Source of the DNA: a bacterium
GTDB lineage: Bacteria > Pseudomonadota > Alphaproteobacteria > Rhodobacterales > Rhodobacteraceae
DNA length: 64,000 nt
Reading direction: 5' to 3'
Assembly (NCBI GenBank): GCA_016124195.1
Contig: WGOE01000004.1
Span: 62,001-126,000 of the forward strand
Shown here: positions 3,825 to 46,714 of the stretch, one piece after another
How positions within the stretch are numbered: the first letter of the stretch is position 1
Layout: every line of letters starts with the position of its first letter
Program-made: the position numbers and the translations under genes
The notes under the pieces: generated by a model
The model's database searches: none
Seen by the model: the letters and a program-made list of their open reading frames with translations, nothing else
Told to the model about the DNA's origin: nothing

Positions 3825-3847
3825 GATGGGCAGATTGCCCATCCTAC
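3825..3847 (-). repeat. REP element, copy 1
   Basis: Read on the minus strand this is GTAG followed by the palindrome GATGGGC-AAT-CTGCCCATC. It sits between the convergent stops of the sufE-like and DUF427 genes. A tetranucleotide head with an imperfect hairpin is the usual form of RAYT-linked REPs, and a RAYT gene lies at 9272-9847. Confidence 0.85.
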
Positions 3848-3852
3848 CTCAT

Positions 3853-6033: not shown

Positions 6034-7902
6034 TCAGGCCACGCGCCGCCCCTTGAAGGCCCTCTCGCGCTTTTTGGCATCGACCTCGAACAGGCTCGCA
6101 AGCTGTTCGGTCATGGCCCCCGCCAATTGTTCGGCATCGGTGATGGTCACGGCGCGCTGGTAATAGCGCGTCACGTCATGGCCGATGCCGATGGCGATCA
6201 GCTCCACCGCCCGGCGCTTTTCGACCATGGCGATCACGTCGCGCAGGTGCTTTTCCAGGAAATTCGCCGGATTGACCGACAGCGTGCTGTCATCGACCGG
6301 CGCCCCGTCCGAGATCACCATCAGCACCTTGCGCGCCTCGTTCCGCGCGATCAGGCGGCGATGCGCCCATTCCAGCGCCTCGCCGTCGATGTTCTCTTTC
6401 AGGAGGCCCTCTTTCATCATCAGGCCAAGGTTCGGCCTGACCCTGCGCCACGGCGCATCGGCGGATTTGTAGATGATGTGGCGCAGATCGTTCAGCCGCC
6501 CCGGACCGGCCGGCCGCCCCGCCGCGAGCCATTTTTCGCGGCTCTGCCCGCCCTTCCAGGCGCGCGTGGTGAAGCCGAGGATCTCGACCTTGACCGAACA
6601 CCGTTCCAGCGTGCGCGCCAACACGTCGGCGCAGATCGCGGCGATGGAAATCGGCCGTCCCCGCATCGATCCGGAATTGTCCAGAAGCAGCGTCACGCAG
6701 GTGTCGCGGAACTCGGTATCCTTTTCCTGCTTGAAGCTGAGCGGCGTGGTCGGATTGGCCACGACCCGCGCCAGACGGCCAGCGTCCAGCGTGCCCTCTT
6801 CCAGATCGAACAGCCACGACCGGTTCTGCTGCGCCTGCAGGCGGCGCTGCAGCTTGTTGGCCAGACGCGAGACGGCGCCCTTCAAAGGTTCCAGCTGCTG
6901 GTCGAGATAGGCGCGCAGGCGTTCGAGTTCGGCCGGTTCGGCCAGATCCTCGGCGCGGATCTCTTCGTCGAATTCCGTGGTAAAGGCGTTGTACAGCGGG
7001 TCTGCGGCCGAATGGGGTGCAGGGGGCGGCGGCTCCAGCGGCGCCTCGCCCTCGGGCAGTTCGGCTTCTTCGCCCTGTTCCTGGTCCGAGGTCTCGTCCA
7101 TCGTGACTTCGGCTTGGGACTGGTCGGGCTCGTCCTCCTGGCTCTGTTCAGGCGAGGCTTCGGATTCCTCGCTTTCCTGCTGTTCGCTGCCGGTCTCTTC
7201 GGGCGTGTCCTCGCGGTCGTCCTCGCCGGTATCGTCCTGCGGGTCTTCCTGATCGGGGTCGTCGCCCAGTTGGTCGCCATAGCCGAGGTCGGCGATCACC
7301 TTGCGCGCCATGCGGGCGAAGGCCTGCTGATCGGCCAGCACATCGCCCAGGTTTTCCAGCGTACCTGTCGCCTGTTCCTCGATGAAGCCGCGCCAGAGGT
7401 CCATCACATGCTGCGCGGATTTCGGCAGATCGCGCCCGGTCGCCAGATGCCGCACCAGATAGCCCGCCGCCACCGGCAAGGGCGCCTCAGAGGCCGATGT
7501 GATCTGGCCATAGCCCTTGCGGTCGGCCTCATGCGCGATCTTGGCGTCGATGTTGGTGGCCGTGCCCGGCATGGCGCGGGCGCCCACCGCCTCGCAGCGC
7601 GCGGTTTCCATCGCCTCGAAGATTTCCTTGGCCAGCGCCCCGGTCGGCGCGTATTTCGCGGCCACCGCATCGTCGTGATAGCGCCGCTTCAACGCAAAGG
7701 CATCAGCCGTGCCGCGCGCCAAGAGAACCTCGTCCCGCGTCATGCGGCGGCTGACCTGCGGCAGGCGCATGCCCTCGCGGTTCATCCCCGCCGGATCGAC
7801 CGAATAGGTCACCGTCATTTCGGGATCGTCGGCCATCGTGCGCGTCGCATCGGCGAGCGCTTTCTTGAAAGGATCAGCGGGGTTGTCGAGAGGTTTGCTC
7901 AT
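6034..7902 (-). CDS. cobT: Cobaltochelatase subunit CobT
   Basis: CobT is part of the ATP-dependent CobN-CobS-CobT complex that inserts cobalt into hydrogenobyrinic acid a,c-diamide in the aerobic cobalamin pathway. The 622-residue protein has the expected N-terminal helical region, a long acidic low-complexity linker (about residues 211-292), and a C-terminal von Willebrand A domain with a MIDAS motif DNSGSMRG at 408-415. Its partner cobS is at 10684. The two genes are separated here by five genes, including the RAYT-REP locus, although they are neighbours in many relatives. Confidence 0.96.
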
Positions 7903-9200: not shown

Positions 9201-9224
9201 GCATGGGCCGATGGCCCATCCTAC
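9201..9224 (-). repeat. REP element, copy 2 (downstream flank of the RAYT gene)
   Basis: On the minus strand it reads GTAG-GATGGGCC-ATC-GGCCCAT, a variant of the family palindrome with a slightly altered stem. It is 47 bases past the RAYT stop and is inverted with respect to the copy at 10017, so the transposase gene is bracketed by REPs. Confidence 0.85.
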
Positions 9225-9271
9225 CGCGGAGCGGCCGTGCAATCGAGATCGGGCCGGGCAGGTCGCGCGCC

Positions 9272-9847
9272 TCAGGCCGCGTCGGGCTGCGGCAGGCGTG
9301 CGGCCTCCGGCAGGGGTTTGGCCTCGGGCAGGCGTTCGGCTGGCGGCGGCGGGCGCAGGCGGGCCAGTTCGGCCGCCTCTGAAATCCGGCCCCGGGCGAA
9401 GCTGGAATAGGGCCAGAGTGCAGGCGCCGCAACCAGGCCATGGCGCACCGGGTTCATTTCGCAATGATCCAGCGCGCGGCGGAATTCCTCTGGGTTGCGG
9501 ATGGCATGTTCGTAGAAGCGGCGCTGCCAGATACCCTTTTCCCGCTTGTCGGCAAGGCTTTGGCGGGGGCGGCCCTGATCCGGAATGGCATGCGAGAAGC
9601 GCGCCTTGATGCCGCGCCAGCGTTCGCTGTACCACACGCCGCCCTCAGGCTCTGTCCAGACCGCGTGCAGATGATCGGGCAGCACCACCATGGCATGGCA
9701 GGTGACCGGATAGTCCTGCACGGTCCGGGCATAGGCGTAGCGCAGGCTTTCGATATGGTCGGTCAGCAGGGTATCGCCGCGCCGCTCCAGCCGGACGGTG
9801 AAGAAATAGGTGGCACCGGGGATGAGAAGGCGGCGATATTGGGTCAT
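9272..9847 (-). CDS. REP-associated tyrosine transposase (RAYT)
   Basis: The 191-residue protein belongs to the Y1/IS200-like HUH transposases that bind and cut REP hairpins. The metal-binding HUH site is HLH at residues 59-61 (in VVLPDHLHAVW), and the likely catalytic tyrosine is Y112 in WQRRFYEHAIRNPEEF, the usual RAYT pattern. MNPVRHGLV near 131-139 is also typical. A proline-rich tail from about residue 163 onward is extra. All catalytic residues are present, so the enzyme may be active. Oppositely oriented REPs lie on both sides, and further copies are scattered through the window. Confidence 0.93.
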   Translation of the reverse strand: MTQYRRLLIPGATYFFTVRLERRGDTLLTDHIESLRYAYARTVQDYPVTCHAMVVLPDHLHAVWTEPEGGVWYSERWRGIKARFSHAIPDQGRPRQSLADKREKGIWQRRFYEHAIRNPEEFRRALDHCEMNPVRHGLVAAPALWPYSSFARGRISEAAELARLRPPPPAERLPEAKPLPEAARLPQPDAA

Positions 9848-9993
9848 GCCGGCAGGGTGCGGCAGATTGGTTAAGGAAGGGTTGACGATCTGGCCGAGCC
9901 TGAGGCGCGCGGTCCAGCCGCGTCAAACCTCCCCCCACCCCCGGCGCCCGCGACAGGGGCGCCGAAACAGGCGGATTTCGCGCACAGCCGACA

Positions 9994-10464
9994 TCAGGGC
10001 GCGCCGGAGGATTTGGGTAGGATGGGCAATCTGCCCATCGTGCCGGCAAGGATGGCGCACCAGTCGGGATGCCTGTGGCCCCGATAAGGCCGCGCGAGCG
10101 GAGAGGCGAGCATGGACGCCGCCACGTCTTGCCCAGCAATCTCCACATCGGCCAGATCGCGACCATAGCGGTCGCGGCCTGCAAACCGCACCCTGGTGAC
10201 CGGGCCAGCGGCTGCGATGGCGCGCATCAGGTCGGACGCCCGCTCGCCTGCCACCCGTTCCGCCTCACAACGCGGATGAAAGATTTCGGGCGTATCATAG
10301 CCCAGCAGACGGACCTTGTGGCGCGCGCCATTGCAGGTCAGGTGGACCGTGTCGCCATCGACGATGCGTGTGACGCTGCAACCGCCTGCATCGGGCACCT
10401 CTGCCTTGCAGGCCGCGAACAACAGCCCAAGGCCGACCAGAAGCCAAAGCGCAAGTCCTCGCAT
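9994..10464 (-). CDS. Thermonuclease (SNase) family lipoprotein with a REP-encoded C-terminus
   Basis: The 156-residue protein begins with a membrane or lipoprotein signal (MRGLALWLLVGLGLLFAAC) and carries the staphylococcal-nuclease fold: VDGDTVHL, RLLGYDTPE and RDRYGRDLADV include the calcium ligands and both catalytic arginines plus the glutamate. It probably cuts nucleic acid outside the cytoplasm. After HPDWCAI the frame enters a REP palindrome (10017-10039), so the tail TMGRLPILPKSSGAP comes from repeat DNA. The REP therefore seems to have replaced the original end of the gene without destroying the core domain. Confidence 0.88.
   Translation of the reverse strand: MRGLALWLLVGLGLLFAACKAEVPDAGGCSVTRIVDGDTVHLTCNGARHKVRLLGYDTPEIFHPRCEAERVAGERASDLMRAIAAAGPVTRVRFAGRDRYGRDLADVEIAGQDVAASMLASPLARPYRGHRHPDWCAILAGTMGRLPILPKSSGAP
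10017..10039 (+). repeat. REP element, copy 3 (upstream flank of RAYT, inside the nuclease gene)
   Basis: GTAG is followed by GATGGGC-AAT-CTGCCCATC in plus orientation. It lies 170 bases upstream of the RAYT start and encodes part of the C-terminal tail of the SNase-family protein on the other strand. Confidence 0.88.
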
Positions 10465-10683: not shown

Positions 10684-11658
10684 TCACTTCATCGCCATGC
10701 TCGCAGCACTTTCGGGCAGTTCCTCGCCAAAGCAGCGCTGGTAGAACTCGGCCACGGTCTGACGCTCCAACTCGTCGCATTTGTTGAGGAAAGACAGCCG
10801 GAAGGCATAGCCCACATTGCGGAAGATCTCGGCGTTTTGCGCCCAGTTCAGCACGGTGCGCGGCGACATCACGGTCGAGAGATCGCCGTTCATGAAGGCG
10901 GTCCGGGTCAGGTCGGCCACGGTCACCATCTGGCTGATCGTCTTGCGGCCTTTCTCGGTGTTGTAATGCGGCGACTTGGCCAGAACGATGGCGGCCTCGG
11001 CGTCGTGGCTCAGATAGTTCAGCGTGGCCACCAGCGACCAGCGGTCCATCTGGGCCTGGTTGATCTGCTGGGTGCCGTGGTAAAGCCCCGTCGTGTCGCC
11101 CAGACCGACCGTGTTGGCGGTGGCGAACAGGCGGAAATAGGGGCTCGGCGTGATGATCTCGTTCTGATCGAGAAGCGTCAGCTTGCCGTCATGTTCCAAG
11201 ACGCGCTGGATGACGAACATGACGTCCGGGCGGCCGGCGTCATATTCGTCGAAGACGATGGCCACGTTGTTGCGCAGGGCCCAAGGCAGGATGCCCTCGT
11301 GGAATTCAGTCACCTGCATGCCGTCGCGCAGCTTGATGGCGTCCTTGCCGATAAGGTCGATCCGGCTGATATGGCTGTCAAGGTTGACCCGCACGCAGGG
11401 CCAGTTCAGCCGCGCCGCGACCTGCTCGATATGGGTGGATTTGCCCGTGCCGTGATAGCCCTGGATCATCACCCGGCGGTTATAGGCAAAGCCCGCCAGG
11501 ATCGCGAGCGTCGTGTCGGGATCGAACTTGTAGGTCGGGTCCACCTCGGGCACGCGGTCGGTGCGGTCGGCAAAGCCCTTGACCTTCATGTCGGTGTCAA
11601 TCCCGAAGACCTCGCGGACAGAGATCTCTTCGGTGGGTTTCACAGCAATATCCAGCAT
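10684..11658 (-). CDS. cobS: Cobaltochelatase subunit CobS
   Basis: CobS is the AAA+ ATPase subunit that drives cobalt insertion together with CobT and CobN. The ATG at 11658 gives [20 protein letters not shown], matching the family start, and a 324-residue protein; the 63 further codons in the track are non-homologous and reach into the divergent methyltransferase gene. Walker A is GYHGTGKST at residues 67-75, Walker B is in [13 protein letters not shown], and arginine-rich sensor segments follow. The J-domain gene and bolA lie further upstream, an order common in Rhodobacteraceae, here interrupted by two genes. Confidence 0.96.
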
Positions 11659-11788
11659 CGTTTTCGGCCCATTTGGTTGCGTCTCATCTGTGAACCATAT
11701 GGCGCGGCGCTGCAAGAGGGCGAGCGGCCCGTGATCCGGCGCCGCCTCGCAGGACAACCGTTTACACAGGCTTGGGCTGCGGCTAACC

Positions 11789-12628
11789 ATGGCGCATACA
11801 ATGCCAAATTCCGGTGCTTTGATCGCTTCGCAATATACAGCCAACACCTATCAGGCCCTGCGCCAGATCATGGCACGGCCCGACGACACCAAGGAATTGG
11901 TTGCGGCGCTGCGGCTTTTGGCAAAATGGCGGGGCGGGATGGTGGCCAATACCATCGCCGCGCGTTCGGGCACGCGGGTTCTGGGCGGGCCATTCGCGGG
12001 GATGGACTGCGGGGCAGGGGTGGCGGAAGGATCGCGCAGTGCGCGGCTTTTGGGCTGCTATGAGGCCACGCTCGCCCCGGTCATCGAAGAGATCGTCGCC
12101 CGTGCCTATCCTCTGGTCATCGATATCGGTTCGGCCGAGGGTTATTACGCTGTCGGTCTGGCCCGGCGCATGCCGCTGAGCCGGATCCTGGCGCGCGACC
12201 AGGACCCGCAGGCCCAGAAACTGTGCAGTGCGCTTGCGGCACTGAACGGGGTGGCCGACAGGGTCGAGGTAGCGGGCCTGTTCCGTCATGCCGATTTCGC
12301 CCGAGCGCTCGATCAGCCCACGGTCGTCCTCTGCGACATCGAGGGCGCCGAGGTCGATCTGCTGGACCCGCAAAAGGCGCCGGGTCTTCTGGCCGCCGAT
12401 ATCCTTGTCGAATGCCACGATTGCCTTACCCCCGGGATCACCCTGCTGTTGAGCGAAAGGTTCGCCGCCAGCCACGAGATCTGCCGCATCGACCGTGGAC
12501 TGCAGGACGCGACCCTGCCGCCCTGGATGGAAGAATTATCCGACCTCGACCGCCTGCTCGCCCTGTGGGAATGGCGCTCGGGCCCGACCCCCTGGCTCTG
12601 GATGCGCCACAAAGGACCGACCCCGTGA
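11789..12628 (+). CDS. SAM-dependent methyltransferase (class I fold)
   Basis: The 279-residue cytoplasmic protein has a Rossmann-type methyltransferase core: motif I is [18 protein letters not shown], an acidic motif II follows in [13 protein letters not shown], and [14 protein letters not shown] fits the post-I strand. The substrate is unknown. Its stop overlaps the GTG of the following glycosyltransferase gene by four bases, so it probably acts on a glycan or glycan precursor in the same pathway. It is divergent from cobS. Confidence 0.82.
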
Positions 12629-24109: not shown

Positions 24110-24132
24110 GATGGGCAGATTGCCCATCCTAC
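24110..24132 (-). repeat. REP element, copy 4
   Basis: On the minus strand it reads GTAG then GATGGGC-AAT-CTGCCCATC. It lies 66 bases upstream of purD and 117 upstream of xseA, in a shared divergent promoter region. This position is unusual, since REPs favour gene ends. Confidence 0.85.
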
Positions 24133-24248
24133 CCCTCGGCCGGCCTTGCGCGCCGGATTGGCCGGGTCGTGGGCCGGCCGCGCTTTACGCCTTCGGCGCG
24201 GGTCATTGCCACATTGCACAGGCCGGCGTTCTTTGGCATCAAGGCTCC

Positions 24249-30981: not shown

Positions 30982-31008
30982 TTGACCTTGCTGCGTGACA
31001 GCGATAAG
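30982..31008 (+). promoter_or_regulatory. Possible promoter for the metZ leader
   Basis: TTGACC and GATAAG are 15 bases apart, a short spacing, and would start transcription near 31015, immediately before the SAM-II aptamer. Confidence 0.35.
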
Positions 31009-31015
31009 CACGGGG

Positions 31016-31072
31016 CCGTGGCGATTTGTTACCGGATTGCGGGCCACGTTAAACACGCCGCTAAAAAGGTCA
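31016..31072 (+). ncRNA. SAM-II riboswitch aptamer
   Basis: The leader of metZ has every part of the SAM-II (metA motif) consensus in order: P1 stem CGTGGC (31017-31022) with GCCACG (31043-31048), between them GATTTGTTACC and GGATTGC, then GTTAAAC and GCTAAAAAGG. The loop bases ACC can pair with GGT at 31068-31070 to form the pseudoknot. SAM-II switches normally lower expression of methionine synthesis genes when S-adenosylmethionine is plentiful, which agrees with metZ downstream. It is absent from the ORF track because it is non-coding. Confidence 0.88.
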
Positions 31073-31100
31073 GGGCGTCTTCGCGCACCTCCCCCTCCTT

Positions 31101-46559: not shown

Positions 46560-46588
46560 CAGCGCCGGATCGCTGCCCTGTGAATGAG

Positions 46589-46611
46589 GTAGGATGGGCA
46601 ATCTGCCCATC
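46589..46611 (+). repeat. REP element, copy 5
   Basis: GTAG followed by GATGGGC-AAT-CTGCCCATC in plus orientation, 30 bases after the stop of the preceding gene. With the inverted copy at 46671 it forms a BIME-like pair. Confidence 0.85.
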
Positions 46612-46670: not shown

Positions 46671-46714
46671 GCATGGGCAGATTGCCCATCCTGCCAAAAT
46701 GCCCATCCTGCCAA
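46671..46714 (-). repeat. REP element, copy 6, with partial duplication
   Basis: On the minus strand it reads GCAG (instead of GTAG), then GATGGGC-AAT-CTGCCCAT. The adjoining sequence repeats CCAAAATGCCCATCCTG, a partial extra copy of the tail. It is inverted relative to copy 5. Confidence 0.75.

Follow-up and report, generated by a model that had tools for sequence, protein, structure and literature searches.

The window, as we call the whole stretch of 64,000 nucleotides that was analysed, carries a RAYT gene (Table 1) between cobT (6034-7902) and cobS (10684-11847), adjoining FMN-reductase-like and nuclease-like genes; the names cobT, cobS and FMN-reductase-like were read off the translations and are presumed assignments. 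A preliminary description of the window had reported a RAYT at this place, and the ORF at 9272-9847(-) matched the NCBIfam profile REP_Tyr_transpos (NF047646), scoring 158 bits where 80 is the cut-off, and aligned with E. coli TnpAREP (4ER8) with an E value of 1.5e-35. The best PDB match of its AlphaFold model (mean pLDDT 86.7) in a fold search was again 4er8 (E 3.9e-16), and the protein has the sequence family of RAYTs, the TnpAREP fold and the HUH metal site. This site, previously noted as HLH, is H59-L-H61, with both histidines invariant in the orthologue alignment. In the 4ER8 alignment N132 is the equivalent of the E. coli metal ligand N119, the WQ motif is kept as W107/Q108, and E113/H114/R117 are the kept equivalents of E100/H101/R104, the residues of E. 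coli TnpAREP that contact GTAG (PMC6006769). A proline-rich tail of ~39 residues extends past the core. The own genome has one copy only of the cobT-cobS RAYT gene, cobT and/or cobS were kept as neighbours for every orthologue examined (in G156 and G159 the contig breaks off on one side), and the orthologue of G010, from another genus, has both; copy count and conserved neighbours are those of a single resident gene with vertical inheritance, as in RAYT / TnpAREP systems.

Table 1 RAYT gene and REP copies in the window (positions counted from its first nucleotide)
Feature	Position	Strand	Remarks
RAYT gene	9272..9847	-	191 aa; REP_Tyr_transpos profile and alignment to 4ER8
REP copy, 46 bp past the RAYT stop codon	9202..9225	-	variant GGGCCATCGGCCC, last base G
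REP copy before the RAYT start, inverted relative to the copy past the stop codon	10016..10039	+	
REP copy	3825..3848	-	slot filled in G157 and G151, orientation alike
REP copy	24110..24133	-	orthologous intergenic region in G151 without a recognisable REP
REP copy, left half of inverted pair	46588..46611	+	
REP copy, right half of inverted pair	46672..46695	-	head GCAG, last base G
Degenerate half REP	46701..46711	-	GCAGGATGGGC only

The protein had been described as an apparently intact RAYT with Tyr112 as its catalytic residue. In the 4ER8 alignment Tyr112 falls opposite W99 of E. coli TnpAREP, and the position is Y, D, R, I or S among the ten genus orthologues, a free variation that rules out Tyr112 as the nucleophile. 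The catalytic Y115 aligns instead with His128, which the AlphaFold model places in helix 119-135, the predicted equivalent of the tyrosine-bearing helix of TnpAREP, and where the catalytic motif would read Y-x-x-x-N-P the window RAYT reads H128-C-E-M-N-P. Residue 128 is His in 10/10 orthologues of the genus; the window RAYT has no tyrosine between residues 112 and 147, and none is conserved in the His128 helix across the ten orthologues. With His in place of the catalytic tyrosine throughout the genus, the RAYT cannot be called intact as it had been described. Of 56 relatives taken from genome records, 49 have Tyr at the catalytic position and His occurs only in four records, all of the His clade. 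The G010 orthologue, which occupies the same cobS-cobT place, has Tyr and is sister to the His clade, and in a maximum-likelihood tree all His RAYTs form one clade next to it (support 100/99); as read from this tree, the replacement of Tyr by His is of one origin, before the split of the ten sampled species. Pairwise dN/dS inside the His clade is 0.13-0.41, indicating that the His-clade RAYT is under purifying selection. Judged by its sequence, the window gene is a RAYT by descent for which the activity label 'tyrosine transposase' should not be claimed. Further RAYT-like genes have Leu, Phe, Trp or Asp where the tyrosine would be (L061, L060, L046, L080 and L172), two of them (L060 and L061) still having GTAG REPs on their flanks. 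For its assessment of function, a large published survey (PMC6006769) retained sequences only if they had both motifs, and tyrosine-less RAYTs would drop out of it for that reason.

Compared with E. coli TnpAREP (4ER8; Bertels group 2 / Quentin subclass 2.2), the window RAYT is alike in fold, in the HUH site, WQ motif and equivalents of E100/H101/R104 and N119, in its flanking inverted GTAG REPs and in being a single resident gene, whereas it differs in having His for Tyr115, in not keeping Trp99, in a lengthened helix C-strand 4 loop, and in a REP that in the own genome is short, with a perfect stem and no bulge. It falls outside Quentin subclass 2.2 as defined by DHLH, WE, YIHYNP and a short insert between helix C and strand 4: DHLH is present and the insert exceeds that of 4ER8 by about 13 aa, but Y112/H128 stand where W99/Y115 would be.

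The RAYT gene is indeed bracketed by oppositely oriented REPs, and the four further copies that had been listed lie where they were placed to within 1-2 bases, the last two forming an inverted pair with 60 bp between its halves (Table 1). The REP pattern gave 11 matches in the window (both strands of each palindrome counted) vs 0.10 expected by chance. The hairpins, previously called imperfect, are in most copies perfect, with an 8-bp stem, a 3-nt loop and no bulge. The REP at 10016-10039 extends over the end of the nuclease ORF (9994-10464(-)), where it codes for part of the C-terminus (MGRLPILP) and so supplies the last codons of this staphylococcal-nuclease-like gene. An Rfam search gave no match at the window REPs; the only Rfam match in the window, away from the REPs, is a SAM_alpha riboswitch at 31008-31085(+) (66.3 bits).

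A scan of the draft genome (4.26 Mb, 18 contigs) found about 100 copies of the REP sequence GGTAGGATGGGCAATCTGCCCATC (REP A), with 100 exact heads GTAGGATGGGC vs 5 for the reversed control and 102 palindromes GATGGGC-N5-GCCCATC vs none. The full palindrome is recognisable at 99/100 exact heads, of which 92 have the standard loop and 7 a loop longer by one base; the remaining head has one arm mismatch. Ninety-six copies were extracted under one rule for alignment and location counts. All have a head followed by the palindrome, as expected of GTAG REPs (GTAG in 93, GCAG in 3), a single 24-mer is common to 55/96, and stem pair 13-17 covaries (A-T, C-G and G-C, plus one G-T). The copies make up 79 sites, comprising 62 single REPs and 17 inverted pairs in both arrangements, with a spacing of 10-171 bp that is not fixed. 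Only 15/96 copies lie inside predicted genes (84% outside), compared with 87.5% of random positions (p about 1e-57), the fractions being approximate as the gene calls came from a simple codon model of our own. Of the copies outside predicted genes, 40 lie in convergent, 36 in tandem and 5 in divergent gaps, compared with 16, 42 and 23 expected from the lengths of the gaps (p about 1e-11), and the nearest stop codon is at a median distance of 13 bp. The family is accordingly of high copy number, dispersed and extragenic, and the genome-wide search that had been proposed for it yielded the copies, the extragenic bias and the 17 paired sites given above.

In order to relate the REPs to the gene, REP heads and RAYTs were counted in 81 relatives (own genus, family and class; draft genomes). 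Heads numbered 100 in the own genome, 113 in G157, 116 in G156, 63 in G151, 55 in G159 and 33 in G010, and 0-4 in the other 75 genomes. All six of the REP-rich genomes (33-116 heads) hold an orthologous RAYT (65-100% identity), a gene present in 11 of the 81 genomes, and six of six would arise by chance with a probability of about 1e-6. The genus members without a RAYT orthologue (G150, G152, G158, G160 and G078) have no REP heads. Across the 81 genomes the palindrome is not frequent in relatives lacking the RAYT; had it been frequent there, this would have told against the proposal of a cognate REP family. Copy number, gene avoidance, inverted pairs and the six-of-six co-occurrence uphold that proposal. 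Five species (G153, G154, G155, G161 and G163) have kept a His-RAYT (60-70% identical) with only 0-2 REP heads, and no GTAG REP is recognisable beside their RAYT genes (L346:8776, L347:3398, L350:8182, L069:1480-1956 and L070:1501-1977). In view of these five, the RAYT is necessary, not sufficient, for REP abundance. They either lost or never had this REP family, and a tyrosine-less RAYT under purifying selection without it suggests a function apart from these REPs.

Orthologous REP sites were called from flank matches. At least 51 of the 79 own sites are shared with G157, mostly in like orientation, counting the first 100 of the 113 G157 matches; 28 own sites were unmatched among the G157 matches listed. 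The flanks of the shared sites are about 81% identical, and at this level most REPs lie in intergenic DNA that cannot be aligned. At orthologous sites nearly all REP columns outside the variable positions are 95-100% identical between the own genome and G157, and the 3' arm of the REP lay outside the search pattern, so that its conservation is independent of the search. The variable stem pair was the same in 11/57 copies between the own genome and G157 (13.9 on shuffling) and in 40/48 between G157 and G151 (14.7 on shuffling; flanks 89%), both among the matches listed. The main variant goes by lineage, being AATCT in the own genome, CATTG/GATCC in G157 and G151, and GATTC in G156; the REPs of G157 and G151 have the own core, a last base that is mostly G, not C, and the loops CATTG, GATCC and AATCT. 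From these comparisons, REP sites last while their content changes species-wide, in a manner that independent point mutation does not explain, and slots are rewritten in place in lineages whose RAYT has no tyrosine: every lineage showing the rewriting carries the His form, fixed before their split. Conversion between REPs was proposed earlier for enterobacteria (Higgins 1988, cited in PMC3116915). The shared sites, at least 51, are kept either by selection or by copying. In G156 and G159 a long two-stem REP hairpin lies beside the cobT-cobS RAYT (L348:1638 and L349:590), keeping GTAGGATGGGCAGT and the lower stem with a variable upper stem.

That the REPs are decaying relics of a transposition that ended with the tyrosine is a reading we consider scarcely tenable. 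The lost tyrosine, the many shared sites and a degenerate REP copy beside the RAYT in G151 would agree with it, whereas the RAYTs of the species compared are separated by a dS of about 0.9-1.2, over which neutral relics would not stay intact palindromes. Neutral relics are excluded at these divergences because 99/100 exact heads keep the full palindrome, the non-variable positions are nearly all 95-100% identical at orthologous sites, and the hypothesis was rejected on the conserved 3' arm, which the search pattern did not contain.

Ordinary active RAYT-REP transposition, in which REPs and inverted pairs would reach new sites by way of an intermediate bound covalently to the tyrosine, is likewise very improbable. 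It would account for the RAYT family match, the flanking inverted REPs, their copy number and co-occurrence with the RAYT across relatives, and for REP copies of which not all are common to the species compared; against it stand the age of most REP sites, His128 in 10/10 orthologues with no conserved tyrosine in that helix, and the reported inactivity of E. coli TnpAREP Y115F in strand transfer (PMC8266576). No polarised fresh insertion was demonstrated at the three sites examined, window 24110, C5:611630 and C5:484193. At window 24110 the G151 region has no REP, and divergence of its intergenic DNA prevents a junction from being read. The REP at C5:611630, unmatched in G157 and G151, is present in G156. 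At C5:484193, G157 and G151 carry a different GTAG palindrome, of the GGTGGGGT type, at the corresponding place after the stop codon; REP A in L011:1485-1515 against the GGTGGGGT-type palindrome in L363 and L364 represents exchange or drift between REP classes in place.

The options that are left are that REPs are kept up without tyrosine chemistry, that the His form is active, or that another RAYT acts. With somewhat more confidence than doubt, and reasoning from sequence comparison, we favour a domesticated REP-binding RAYT whose REPs are converted by host repair. The sequences show that a RAYT with a cognate GTAG-REP family was inherited vertically at the cobT-cobS locus of a genus of Rhodobacteraceae (probably Pseudorhodobacter), and that His took the place of its tyrosine in the ancestor of the ten sampled species, without loss of the metal site, of the GTAG-reading residues or of purifying selection. 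The His protein would be a putative REP-binding factor with no tyrosine-linked cut-and-rejoin transposition. The REPs remain in old intergenic slots near gene ends, with a conserved core and a species-specific stem variant; they would be retained as useful at gene ends and/or as putative binding sites of the RAYT, and would be homogenised by REP-to-REP copying (gene conversion or hairpin-templated repair), not mainly by insertion at new sites. Two observations weigh against the binder: REP binding is not obviously the job of the RAYT in the five REP-poor His species, and some of the 28 sites unmatched in the G157 listing may be new insertions, in which case transposition continued.

An active His form is possible, though we hold it to be unlikely. 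His128, or a water activated by it, would replace the tyrosine, and the protein would be a nickase that depends on metal and acts on REP hairpins; forming no stable link to the DNA, it would stimulate repair from another REP, by which variants are copied into existing slots and not inserted elsewhere. The retention of H59, H61, N132 and the GTAG-reading residues under purifying selection with an invariant His is consistent with such a nickase, as are the in-place, species-specific rewriting in lineages that all have the His form and the finding of no other RAYT in G151 or G159, the assemblies of which are 79-82% complete. It is weakened by that same incompleteness of the two supporting genomes and by the five species that hold the His form but hardly any REPs of this type, and we know of no HUH nuclease of the RAYT family with His as its nucleophile. 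It is a similarly tentative proposal that the HUH-family protein with His might still act on REP hairpins, and that the change from Tyr to His might have turned a transposase of REPs to new sites into a rewriter of existing slots, leading to genome-wide concerted evolution of a 24-bp element.

The own genome has a second RAYT, with Tyr, at C15:175559-176065, and G156 and G154 also hold other Tyr RAYTs, any of which might act in trans on the REP family with the His protein as a passenger. We regard this as improbable, as REP abundance tracks the cobT-cobS RAYT and not the other RAYTs, no other RAYT was found in G151 and G159 (79-82% complete assemblies), and the REP that flanks the second RAYT is a different one, GTAGGTCGGGG, which also makes mobilisation of REP A by this RAYT unlikely. 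With 17 matches vs 15 for the reversed control, GTAGGTCGGGG is a small family at most.

RAYTs have been called domesticated transposases, and the His clade bears on their role in the cell and on the dependence of REPs on catalysis. At an unchanged locus the gene carries Tyr in one genus but His in another, and of the His species half are rich in REPs while the others hold almost none, a natural experiment that parts REP binding from tyrosine chemistry. Transposition, selection and gene conversion can here be tested against one another as the means by which REPs are maintained.

Like other GTAG REP families (PMC3733652) and REPINs (PMC3116915), the present one has a GTAG head, a palindrome, about 100 copies, inverted pairs, and sites beside stop codons and between convergent genes. 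It differs from them in consisting mostly of single copies (62/79 sites) rather than pairs, and in having slots that are conserved between species with the stem variants rewritten. The 'orthogroups' of Nunvar 2013 (PMC3686654) are alike in having syntenic RAYTs with different REP classes, there among related strains, here long and two-stemmed in G156/G159 and short in the own genome, and differ in that the variants here were compared slot by slot and the RAYT has no tyrosine. Alphaproteobacterial systems had been said to be less described; this stands for Rhodobacteraceae, in which no report of GTAG REPs was found in the accessible literature, a gap that is not proof of novelty, and does not extend to Bradyrhizobium and Rhodopseudomonas, whose GTAG REPs have been described (PMC3733652).

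REPs also occur inside RAYT genes. The second RAYT gene contains an in-frame inverted pair of the REP that flanks it, GTAGGTCGGGG (105 bp, 35 codons; L031:1480-2013(-)). In a survey of the family, 19/48 RAYT genes had GTAG hairpins; in 17 of these genes they sit in the helix C-strand 4 loop, against an expectation of 0.03 per gene. REPs within RAYT genes have been described in subclass 2.4 and in part of subclass 2.8 (PMC6006769), and the idea that internal REPs are new in kind was dropped, the literature having the phenomenon for these other subclasses. The second RAYT and 16 relatives resemble subclass 2.4 of Quentin 2018 (PMC6006769) in bearing GTAG REPs in frame inside the gene; in that subclass the insert lies between strand 3 and helix C, whereas here, in E. 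coli-like RAYTs, it follows helix C and precedes strand 4, and the window RAYT itself differs in having no internal REP. In some genes (L056, L057 and L083) the GTAG REP in the RAYT loop belongs to a family different from that of the flanking REPs.
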